Made by a program: the position numbers and the translations under genes. Under the pieces are notes generated by a model. That model saw only the letters and a program-made list of their open reading frames with translations, had not been told where the DNA came from and searched no databases. Positions 9,801 to 58,046 of a stretch of DNA of 64,000 nucleotides are shown in pieces. Source of the stretch: an uncultured Bacteroidota bacterium (GTDB lineage Bacteria > Bacteroidota > Bacteroidia > Chitinophagales > Chitinophagaceae); assembly GCA_903887415.1 (NCBI GenBank), contig CAISPO010000020.1:62001-126000 (forward strand). The letters run 5' to 3'. Within the stretch, counting starts at the first letter, position 1; every line of letters begins with the position of its first letter.

Positions 9801-9890
9801 ATTGAGGCAAGCTAGTAAACAAACGGTAAAATTCGCTGAAAATTACATCAAGGCAAATAAAAAACCGAGGATATTTATGCTGTACATAGA

Positions 9891-9909
9891 GCCGTTGCAC
9901 CGCAACGGC
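9891..9909. repeat. Short palindrome GCCGTTGC/GCAACGGC
   Basis: Eight-base arms around ACC. It resembles the inner part of the GTAGAGACGTTGCA palindromes and lies 93 bases from one, so it may be a degenerate member. The surrounding 9801-10050 stretch contains no gene. Confidence 0.45.
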
Positions 9910-10001
9910 TATCGCATTATGTATCCCCCTCGCCGCAGCTCGTTATTTCGCGTAAATGGATTGATGAAGGAGCGACCTGGTGGTAATCCGTGCAGTAGTT
10001 G

Positions 10002-10024
10002 GAGACGTTGCACTGCAACGTCTC
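10002..10024. repeat. GAGACG...CGTCTC palindrome
   Basis: Arms GAGACGTTGCA and TGCAACGTCTC are perfect over 11 bases around a central C, followed by TAC. It belongs to the family with ends GTAGAGACG/CGTCTCTAC that flanks the RAYT transposase at 41996. Confidence 0.85.
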
Positions 10025-10050
10025 TACGTGGAACACCACCCTAAAACAAA

Positions 10051-15455: not shown

Positions 15456-15484
15456 GTAGAGACGTTGCATTGCAACGTCTCTAC
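15456..15484. repeat. GTAGAGACG palindrome inside efflux operon
   Basis: Perfect 14-base arms GTAGAGACGTTGCA and TGCAACGTCTCTAC around a single T. It sits between the TolC and membrane-fusion genes, where it could affect mRNA stability. Confidence 0.9.
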
Positions 15485-16610: not shown

Positions 16611-16624
16611 TAAATGGGGGCAAT

Positions 16625-16657
16625 AGGTGTGGGACACCTTTGAGGTGTCCCACACCT
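16625..16657. repeat. Perfect 15-bp hairpin AGGTGTGGGACACCT
   Basis: The arms AGGTGTGGGACACCT and its exact complement are separated by TTG. It lies between the membrane-fusion and pump genes with no T-run on either side, so it is more likely a palindromic repeat or mRNA-stability element than a terminator. Confidence 0.85.
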
Positions 16658-16678
16658 ACCCACAAAAAGATATTCCAG

Positions 16679-23193: not shown

Positions 23194-23236
23194 GATTAAA
23201 GGATTCCTCAGATTCCTGTTCCATTTGTGTTGTCTT

Positions 23237-23257
23237 GAGACGGCAGCATGCCGTCTC
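23237..23257. repeat. GAGACGGCA palindrome
   Basis: Arms GAGACGGCA and TGCCGTCTC around GCA, followed by TAC. A member of the RAYT-associated palindrome family with a different inner sequence. Confidence 0.8.
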
Positions 23258-23633
23258 TACAGAGATGTGTTATCGAAATATCACAGTTTTTCAAGAAAAA
23301 AAGTTTTGTGGATAGTGGAGGTTATTGGATTGGTTGTCAATAGTTTGGTTTTTGAAAAATGTCACAAACGTATCGCATTCATATCACAGGTTTCCATAGT
23401 TTTTCGTTTGTTTATTTCCGATTTTTCTTCTGGTTTACTTCCGGTTTTCTGCAAGATTGCTGCAAATATTTTCTTCGTTTTGCCTTGATCAAATGCGTTT
23501 TGCGTCACACCCGCCGTTGCCCTAACGCTATGGCGGTAACACGCTCCTTTGCAGTGAAAAACTGCTTCGCGGGAACAAAGGTAGGATGGAATAATGGTAT
23601 GGAAAAAAGATGATATCCACAATTTTTTTTGGG

Positions 23634-41710: not shown

Positions 41711-41740
41711 AGTAGAGACGGGATGCATCCCGTCTCTACT
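41711..41740. repeat. Perfect 30-bp palindrome upstream of the RAYT gene
   Basis: Arms AGTAGAGACGGGATG and CATCCCGTCTCTACT, perfect over 15 bases with no loop. A nearly identical copy (28 bp) lies just downstream of the transposase gene at 42531, and half-sites GTAGAGAT occur at 41693, 41789 and 41803. Confidence 0.95.
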
Positions 41741-41818
41741 TGTGTGTGTGTGTGCCCCACGATCTATATTTCTCGGATCGTTGTTTGTGTAGAGATTGTT
41801 GTGTAGAGATATTGTTAT

Positions 41819-41853
41819 GTAGAGACGGGATGCATCCCTCTCTCTCTCTCTAC
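41819..41853. repeat. Degenerate GTAGAGACG palindrome with CT expansion
   Basis: The left arm GTAGAGACGGGATGCATCCC is intact. The right arm is stretched into a CTCTCTCT run before TACT. A smaller GAGGGG/CCCCTC palindrome at 41931-41947 follows before the RAYT start. The whole 41657-41995 stretch has no gene. Confidence 0.85.
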
Positions 41854-41995
41854 TTGTGTGTATGTGGTATCTGGCGACTACATTGCTTCGTCATTTGCAG
41901 TAGTATCGGACAAAAAATATTCAGTACGCAGAGGGGTGCATCCCCTCCTATTTACAAACAACAAATCCAGTTCTAACATACATTTATAAGCGGCG

Positions 41996-42514
41996 ATGAC
42001 CCTATTCAACAATAAATATCGCATAGAAACTGCACGTGCCAAGAACTGGGATTATCATTCAGCCGCATCCTATTTTATTACTATTTGCACCAAAGAGAGT
42101 GTTCATTATTTTGGTAAAATTCAAAGCAAAGAGATGGTCCTGAACGATTGTTGCGTCGTTGTCCGGCGTGAATGGATCAAGACGCCGGATATCAGGCCGG
42201 ATATGAATATTACGCTTGGTGAATTTGTAGTAATGCCCAATCATTTTCATGGTATCATCAGCATCGGGGAAAACGGTTATAATGAACAGCGAAAAAACAA
42301 TGAGTTTGGAATCCAATCGAAAAACCTTGGGGCGATAGTTGGTGGTTTTAAGGCTTCGGCAACTAAACACTTGCGAAAGATAAATGCTGCTTTTGGCTGG
42401 CAGGAGCGCTATCATGACCATATTATAAGAGATAATGAATCGCATGAACGGATAAGGCATTACATACAAAACAACCCGGCAAATTGGCTAAGTGACAAAT
42501 TTTATCGCGATTGA
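41996..42514 (+). CDS. REP-associated tyrosine transposase (RAYT), Y1 family
   Basis: 172 residues. Single-strand nuclease of the IS200-like Y1 fold. It opens with Y-F-I-T-I-C-T-K-E, the HUH metal motif is M-P-N-H-F-H-G (near residue 84), and the C-terminal helix region has W-Q-E-R-Y-H-D-H-I-I-R followed by I-R-H-Y-I-Q-N-N-P-A-N-W. These features are typical of RAYTs, which act on palindromic REP sequences but rarely move themselves. Palindromes sharing 28 bases lie at 41711-41740 and 42531-42558 on both sides. The frame is intact. The catalytic tyrosine is probably in one of the two C-terminal blocks. Confidence 0.93.
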   Translation: MTLFNNKYRIETARAKNWDYHSAASYFITICTKESVHYFGKIQSKEMVLNDCCVVVRREWIKTPDIRPDMNITLGEFVVMPNHFHGIISIGENGYNEQRKNNEFGIQSKNLGAIVGGFKASATKHLRKINAAFGWQERYHDHIIRDNESHERIRHYIQNNPANWLSDKFYRD

Positions 42515-42530
42515 CTATGATTTACCACGG

Positions 42531-42558
42531 GTAGAGACGGGATGCATCCCGTCTCTAC
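42531..42558. repeat. Perfect 28-bp palindrome downstream of the RAYT gene
   Basis: Arms GTAGAGACGGGATG and CATCCCGTCTCTAC, no mismatch, 17 bases after the transposase stop and 38 before the dxs stop. It is identical in sequence to the core of 41711-41740. Confidence 0.95.
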
Positions 42559-48886: not shown

Positions 48887-48916
48887 CGTAGAGACGCAAA
48901 GCATTGCGTCTCTACG
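48887..48916. repeat. GTAGAGACG palindrome between MBL and permease genes
   Basis: Arms CGTAGAGACGCAA and TTGCGTCTCTACG, 13 bases perfect, loop AGCA, followed by TTTTTTAG. It could also act as a terminator after the MBL gene. Confidence 0.85.
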
Positions 48917-58018: not shown

Positions 58019-58046
58019 GTAGAGACATAATGCATTGCGTCTCTAC
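58019..58046. repeat. GTAGAGACG palindrome upstream of the aminotransferase
   Basis: GTAGAGACATAATGCA and TGCATTGCGTCTCTAC share the four central bases; two of the pairs mismatch. The end sequences match the family flanking the RAYT gene. Confidence 0.75.

Follow-up and report, generated by a model that had tools for sequence, protein, structure and literature searches.

The 64,000-nt stretch of DNA analysed here (the window) contains an intact gene of a REP-associated tyrosine transposase (RAYT, TnpA-REP) with double-foot REP palindromes on both sides. Such palindromes are in excess over chance, the type of their core correlates with the type of RAYT, and the block that carries the RAYT is less diverged from a genome of the same genus than are the neighbouring genes. 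Judged by sequence comparison, variation of the cores is constrained, the core type going with the RAYT clade. The element is probably a group 4 REPtron, that is, the gene of an HUH/Y1 single-strand DNA transposase between double-foot REPs, with the other palindromes being leftovers of several RAYTs.

The RAYT gene (41996..42514, plus strand) is an intact ORF of 172 amino acids. The initial annotation had described an H-F-H HUH motif and the C-terminal blocks of these transposases, and both are confirmed: the protein has H83-F84-H85, W135-Q136 and Y156 within YIQNNP, and in an alignment of 37 RAYTs H83, H85, W135, Y156, N160 and P161 are invariant and Q136 is nearly so. All motifs of RAYT group 4 / TnpA-REP subclass 2.4 that were looked for are present, namely NH[IFV]H (N82-H83-F84-H85), WQ (W135-Q136) and YIxNNP (YIQNNP, 156-161). 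There is no C-terminal extension, the protein stopping 11 residues past NNP, and the catalytic tyrosine has Y---NP instead of the Y---Q that marks TnpA of IS200/IS605. By these motifs and by the double-foot REPs, the product is assigned at the sequence level to group 4 / subclass 2.4. No REP lies inside the ORF; an in-frame gene REP is described as predominant, and not stated to be obligatory, in the relevant parts of Quentin et al. 2018. The scores against family models, which count against the reading as a group 4 REPtron, are 56.1 bits for NCBIfam REP_Tyr_transpos (NF047646; curated cut-off 80) and 22.6 bits for Pfam Y1_Tnp (PF01797; gathering cut-off 23), both under the cut-off. An AlphaFold model (pLDDT 84, pTM 0.79) has its top PDB match in 4er8 (Foldseek E 7e-7, TM 0.58, 18% identity), the E. 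coli RAYT (TnpA-REP) bound to a REP hairpin, followed by the ISDra2 and IS608 transposases. Searching PDB by phmmer with the single RAYT sequence returned zero matches; a profile search recovered 4er8.

The pair of flanking palindromes had been recognised correctly: the upstream REP (41711..41740) is a perfect 30-bp palindrome with the core GGATGCATCC, 255 bp 5' of the RAYT ATG, and the downstream REP (42531..42558) is a 28-bp copy with the same core, measured at 16 bp past the RAYT stop. For the 28-mer as single-stranded DNA, a hairpin of 12 bp closed by a TGCA loop is predicted (-12.3 kcal/mol, z -7.7). A third copy of the GGATGCATCC core is found in a second upstream REP (41819..41853), whose left half is intact and whose right half has decayed into a CT run, and a degenerate REP, GCAGAGGGGTGCATCCCCTCCTA, was read by eye in the 5' leader of the RAYT (about 41928..41950). 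Six further elements had been described as keeping the ends GTAGAGACG/CGTCTCTAC. This stands for two of them, the TTGCA-class REP at 15456..15484 and the REP at 48887..48916 (both ends exact, counted from 48888), which has the core CAAAGCATTG, one base from CAATGCATTG, and is followed by a T-run. Of the others, the TTGCA-class REP at 10000..10027 (degenerate partner at 9888-9912) and the REP at 23235..23260 (core GCAGCATGC) have damaged left ends, the REP at 58019..58046 (core TAATGCATTG) has one base changed in its left end, and the sixth is the damaged 41819 element. Exact ends occur four times in the window (15456, 41712, 42531 and 48888) and never in 100 shuffles. No match to Rfam was found in the window at gathering thresholds, and PHROGs gave two weak matches of unknown function. 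The window also holds a near-perfect 35-bp palindrome, TAGGTGTGGGACACCTTTGAGGTGTCCCACACCTA, at 16624-16658, and G117, a metagenome-assembled genome of the same genus, has a similar one upstream of its RAYT; this is perhaps another dispersed palindrome family.

The proposed genome-wide excess was borne out too: the 4.73-Mb genome has 42 exact GTAGAGACG...CGTCTCTAC copies and none of the reversed control pattern. Their cores fall into 18 NN-ATGCAT-NN, four one-base variants thereof, 10 TTGCAnTGCAA or near, and 10 CAAnATTTTG-like. The resident core GGATGCATCC with exact ends is present in two copies, both at the RAYT gene, and both exact copies in G117 are at the RAYT as well; there is thus no sign that the resident protein has spread REPs, a point against the reading as a group 4 REPtron. 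The resident RAYT sits in the NNATG clade, and the remaining NNATG copies may be its substrates if the NN pair is not read. Twenty of the 42 copies have core types typical of other RAYT clades. A search for further RAYT relatives in this genome (E <= 0.01) found one on contig C18, a 71-aa remnant on C44 and one on C48, and no intact RAYT of the clades to which the cores of these 20 copies belong. The C18 RAYT (L024 3509-4121), which adjoins uvrA, has a different REP, GGGCGGACCCATGTGTCCGCCC, both within the gene, in frame, and downstream of it; the C48 relative has no palindrome in the first 4 kb of its contig.

The link between core and RAYT was investigated in a set of 120 distinct RAYT proteins or loci, the window's own included. 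Palindromes tipped GT[AG]G or C[CT]AC, either within the gene or at most 450 bp away, are found at 94 of the 120 loci (72 inside the ORF, 35 upstream, 30 downstream). The same filter passed none of nine whole dxs control loci; a tenth, from G117, was excluded as it holds the resident RAYT's own downstream REP. The in-gene palindromes number 91, and 69 of the 75 in genes with both motifs found are between HUH and Y. Among 48 loci with at least two palindromes, 137 of 175 within-locus pairs have the same core (five-mer plus parity), as compared to 927 of 16845 pairs between loci, and 2000 permutations gave at most 26 within-locus matches. On a tree of 110 RAYTs, 57 rows were labelled by core class (NNATG 23 rows, CAANA 12, RGGCA 12 and TTGCA 10; the other 53, with no palindrome or a rare core, were not counted), and these labels need six changes, while 300 shuffles need at least 24. 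Exact core labels (56 rows) need 25 changes, against at least 36 in shuffles. Exceptions to the class rule include L090 and L125, which have TTGCA cores outside the TTGCA clade. Within one genome, several RAYT cores can be found (CGATG and TTGCA in G055; GGATG, TTGCA and GAAAA in G117), hence the core goes with the RAYT and not with the genome; in G014, neighbouring RAYTs share one palindrome. The tips vary as well, reading GTAGGGGC, GTAGCACC or GTAGAGACA at other RAYTs of the group. Two points in the reading of the initial annotation are therefore not supported, that of one RAYT owning all palindromes, as the core follows the RAYT clade and the resident core with exact ends is restricted to its own gene, and that of conserved tips with variable cores. 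Against the group 4 REPtron stand the exceptions named, and core class and RAYT clade could also covary by shared history, without specificity. Separately, the RAYT genes of L102/L114, L060/L126 and L122/L195 show 79-88% identity over their first 120-140 bp and are otherwise more diverged, so RAYT genes may be mosaics.

Copy number of the palindromes had been suggested to track the presence of a RAYT, and on average it does. Counting any homologue at E <= 1e-5 as RAYT-positive, whatever its REP, and with the window's own genome in both samples, 23 of 117 genomes of the family have a RAYT, 17 have palindromes and 10 have both: palindromes are in 10/23 RAYT-positive and 7/94 RAYT-negative genomes (Fisher p 1e-4, ignoring kinship), with mean copies of 4.65 and 0.43, respectively. 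Of 35 genomes of the genus, 14 have a RAYT and 16 have palindromes (10/14 RAYT-positive versus 6/21 RAYT-negative; p 0.015, ignoring kinship). The tracking is incomplete in both directions: 13 of the 23 RAYT-positive genomes of the family have no palindromes, and three RAYT-negative genomes hold 11 (G026), 24 (G090) and 25 (G152) copies, which counts against the reading as a group 4 REPtron. A PF01797 search of ten genomes (G152 not among them) found four other Y1 proteins in G026 (best E 1.4e-8) and none in G090. Among 24 control loci of other Y1 proteins, two (L299 and L306) pass the palindrome filter, neither with the GTAGAGAC tip. L306, which encodes a Y1 protein outside the resident RAYT group (G122:C83), has three other palindromes nearby, two of them GTAG-tipped, for example GTAGTCTCCGACTAC. 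The initial annotation as a Bacteroidota REP/RAYT system is supported.

The placement of the copies raises the question of whether they function at 3' ends as RNA or DNA elements (as bidirectional terminators or by stabilising mRNA) and are kept there by selection, with the RAYT being incidental. The 41 of the 42 copies that were classified (C38:43258 was left out) are 24 convergent, 16 tandem and one divergent (24 versus 1, p 1.5e-6), none is inside an ORF of at least 100 aa, the hairpins are stable, and copies exist in genomes without this RAYT type. Runs of five T within 14 nt on one strand follow four of the 41 copies, and the copy at 48888 is seen with such a run, but 37 have none, and placement off promoters also fits selection against harmful insertions. 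Functional elements with an incidental RAYT explain neither why the core follows the RAYT clade nor why palindromes flank or sit in 94 of 120 RAYT loci, and we consider this explanation improbable. 

The RAYT of the window has diverged little from that of G117 (MAG Umea_bin-01667, fragmented, with 6% contamination). One G117 contig carries the TPR gene, the small ORF (ORF41222) and the RAYT, and a second one has dxs and the 3' half of the RAYT; by their matching gene order, the two contigs appear to join inside the RAYT. The dS of the RAYT is 0.151 (14 of 102.5 sites), as compared to 0.914 for dxs, 0.892 for cdsA, 1.617 for CPBP, 1.244 for TPR and 0.624 for the small ORF, and is lower than that of dxs with p 1e-13 and that of the small ORF with p 1e-5. 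At the protein level, the RAYT is 95% identical to G117, Dxs 98% and the other four neighbours 70-88%. Gene and leader together (41850..42514, plus strand) are about 96% identical (95.5% for the gene, 135 of 140 aligned bases for the leader). On the left, this highly identical block has its border within the REP cluster (the BLAST match starts at 41800), with the damaged 41819 element at its left end; the right border is the RAYT stop codon. In G117 the downstream REP is also between RAYT and dxs, and the spacer leading to it is unrelated. The dxs loci of G118-G124 (L154-L160) have no match to the RAYT or its REPs. In a control comparison, the C18 RAYT has a dS of 0.976 to G120, close to that of uvrA (0.897), and so looks vertically inherited. 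On one G117 contig (C352; L101 1-132), the RAYT is joined near codon 90 to 132 bp of unrelated sequence, although the complete gene is present on another contig of this MAG; the junction may reflect strain variation, an insertion or an artefact of assembly.

For the low divergence of this block between the two genomes, there is close to an even chance that ordinary homologous recombination is responsible, or a recent acquisition common to both, neither REPs nor RAYT playing a part. In favour of this are the right border at the RAYT stop, not at the downstream REP, the unrelated spacer, and the meeting of the two contigs of G117, a fragmented and partly contaminated MAG, inside the RAYT. Against it, the left border lies in the REP cluster, and at an unrelated locus a RAYT of another clade is found with the flanks kept.

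This unrelated locus is shared by five genomes (L084, L089, L122, L125 and L143): the flanks are 74-90% identical and the RAYTs belong to two clades, L084 and L089 to the NNATG part of the tree and L122, L125 and L143 to the RGGCA clade. Between L084 and L143, the flanks are 87 and 88% identical and the RAYTs 61% (nt) and 50% (aa); the respective values are 87 and 88%, 60% and 52% for L084-L125 and 84 and 79%, 67% and 56% for L089-L122. A tree holding the five rows together is rejected (AU p 0.0004, for a group named after the tree was seen and on a quick tree). The RAYTs of L125 and L143 are 84% identical, yet have different in-gene REPs. A further pair, L182-L184, has flanks of 75 and 72% identity and RAYTs of 60% (nt). 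In other cases (L043-L044, L093-L099, L105-L113, L109-L133, L191-L204 and L104 with L105 or L113) the RAYT is about as diverged as the flanks. Loci like these pairs and C18 show plain vertical descent, against exchange as a general rule.

The dispersed REPs also differ between species at corresponding sites. Seven REP sites of the window's genome were located in G117: three of them lack the REP (15456; 23237, with one flank located; C44:155809, with the flanks on two contigs), the same core is present at two (10002, with decayed ends, and 42531), at C44:153780 another core is in the same intergenic space, and C44:148130 is degenerate. The orthologous stretches of G117, G120, G121 and G123 have no palindrome at 15456, and no REP lies beside the orthologous left-hand gene of the 23235 element in the same four genomes (left flank only). 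In the same intergenic space as 15456, G117 and G121 (L274 and L276) have another inverted repeat of the CCCTCTCC...GGAGAGGG type. With exact REPs in other species as the starting point, the sites C18:110934 and C37:77924 are common with G117 and have a different core class there, C7:55830 is common with G121 with a similar core, and C12:31862 and 48888 are common with G120, where the core is identical or nearly so (CAATGCATTG for the G120 orthologue of 48888). Sites common between species with other cores indicate that sites can persist while cores change. This fits replacement of one REP by another, and also loss with new insertion at permissive spots, or stepwise change. Clean empty-site junctions of dispersed REPs were sought and none found, the intergenic DNA being too diverged to read target sites. 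A greater conservation of tips than of cores at shared sites had been considered and was dropped, since both copies came from an exact tip search.

It is unlikely that the diversity of cores arose by mutation and template-switch correction of quasi-palindromes instead of RAYT specificity or replacement. In its favour, asymmetric one-base variants are present beside symmetric cores (CAAAGCATTG, CGATGCATTG and TCATGCATGG), and the NN pair does vary within the NN-ATGCAT-NN class; however, TTGCAnTGCAA, CAAnATTTTG and NNATGCATNN are distinct in length or at the apex, each with its own peak in the genome, and the class changes at the shared sites C37:77924 and C18:110934 and in the same intergenic space at C44:153780. 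Tentatively, and at somewhat less than an even chance, we propose that RAYTs of this group reside at fixed sites and can be swapped there in the manner of cassettes: an incoming RAYT from a different clade, bringing its own core, would take the place of the resident while the flanks stay, and dispersed REPs would likewise be replaced by REPs with other cores at the same site. If so, REPs would be docking and exchange sites, the mixed cores of a genome would record the RAYTs it once held, and REPs in genomes without a matching transposase would be explained.

Type I restriction-modification subunits are encoded within 5 kb of 14 of 80 RAYT loci (L077, L082, L084, L089, L090, L100, L114, L121, L122, L125, L126, L132, L143 and L150; the profiles were built from a few of the subunits), in 13 of them within 600 nt. 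Of the 28 restriction-modification hits, 27 are on the RAYT strand, and restriction families are the commonest Pfam matches among the 145 of 150 neighbour proteins scanned (five large ones were left out). Five of the 14 are one shared locus, with the RAYT start overlapping the hsdR stop by one base, followed by an hsdM-hsdS fusion. Among the matches listed, no paper on adjacency of RAYTs and restriction-modification genes was found.

For the group 4 REPtron, which we prefer, the following mechanism is proposed. A single-stranded REP would fold into a hairpin with a GTAG 5' foot and a CTAC 3' foot, and the transposase would most likely bind the foot and the apical part; the apical core, which differs between RAYT clades, is the best candidate for the specificity signal. 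Tyr156 would cut beside the hairpin on the lagging strand and the ends would then be rejoined, by which REPs could be copied into other REPs or swapped for them. The other palindromes of the genome would be a mixed population from several RAYTs of the group that passed through the lineage and were presumably lost, and the present RAYT would have been acquired or exchanged at its site fairly recently. A point against is the symmetry of the hairpin, since the RAYTs studied so far rely on a strand polarity that a symmetrical hairpin does not provide.

Bacterial chromosomes commonly contain REP repeats, whose mode of spread is unsettled. In print, as far as the portions of these papers at hand go, are REPs flanking the gene on either side, double-foot REPs, REPs within the gene, co-evolution of REPs and RAYTs, and REPs in the absence of a RAYT (PMC6006769, PMC2817692, PMC3733652, PMC8266576). 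Among the matches listed in the open-licence literature, there is no account of in-place RAYT replacement or of these Bacteroidota core classes. The four-class core code along the transposase clade is a direct prediction for binding and cleavage tests of group 4, the biochemistry presented in the relevant part of PMC8266576 concerning groups 2 and 3.

Of the known systems, RAYT group 4 / TnpA-REP subclass 2.4, as presented in the pertinent sections of Quentin et al. 2018 (PMC6006769), is alike in NHFH, WQ and YIxNNP, in double-foot GTAG...CTAC REPs and in its occurrence in Bacteroidetes. Its in-gene REPs lie between HUH and Y, and relatives of the window RAYT carry in-frame gene REPs too, whereas the window gene has none in its ORF, its own core is not dispersed with exact ends, and the RAYT dS is below that of the neighbours. 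The IS608 and ISDra2 TnpA proteins (IS200/IS605) share the HUH/Y1 fold, and the elements have hairpin ends (PMC6006769, same sections); the window RAYT differs by Y---NP instead of Y---Q and by having one full copy in the genome. E. coli TnpA-REP (group 2, 4er8), the best PDB match, is alike in fold, HUH/Y1 layout and GTAG foot, but shares only 18% identity, and E. coli REPs are imperfect with a required bulge according to the part of PMC8266576 that deals with them, while the window REPs are perfect palindromes. The gammaproteobacterial rayt loci have the same REP-rayt-REP arrangement, with RAYT and REP evolving together, in the passages concerned of Nunvar 2010 (PMC2817692). In those loci, RAYT orthologues have a lower protein identity than the products of the adjacent genes; here, the RAYT dS is about sixfold below that of dxs, and the RAYT protein, at 95%, is below Dxs (98%) and above the other four neighbours (70-88%).
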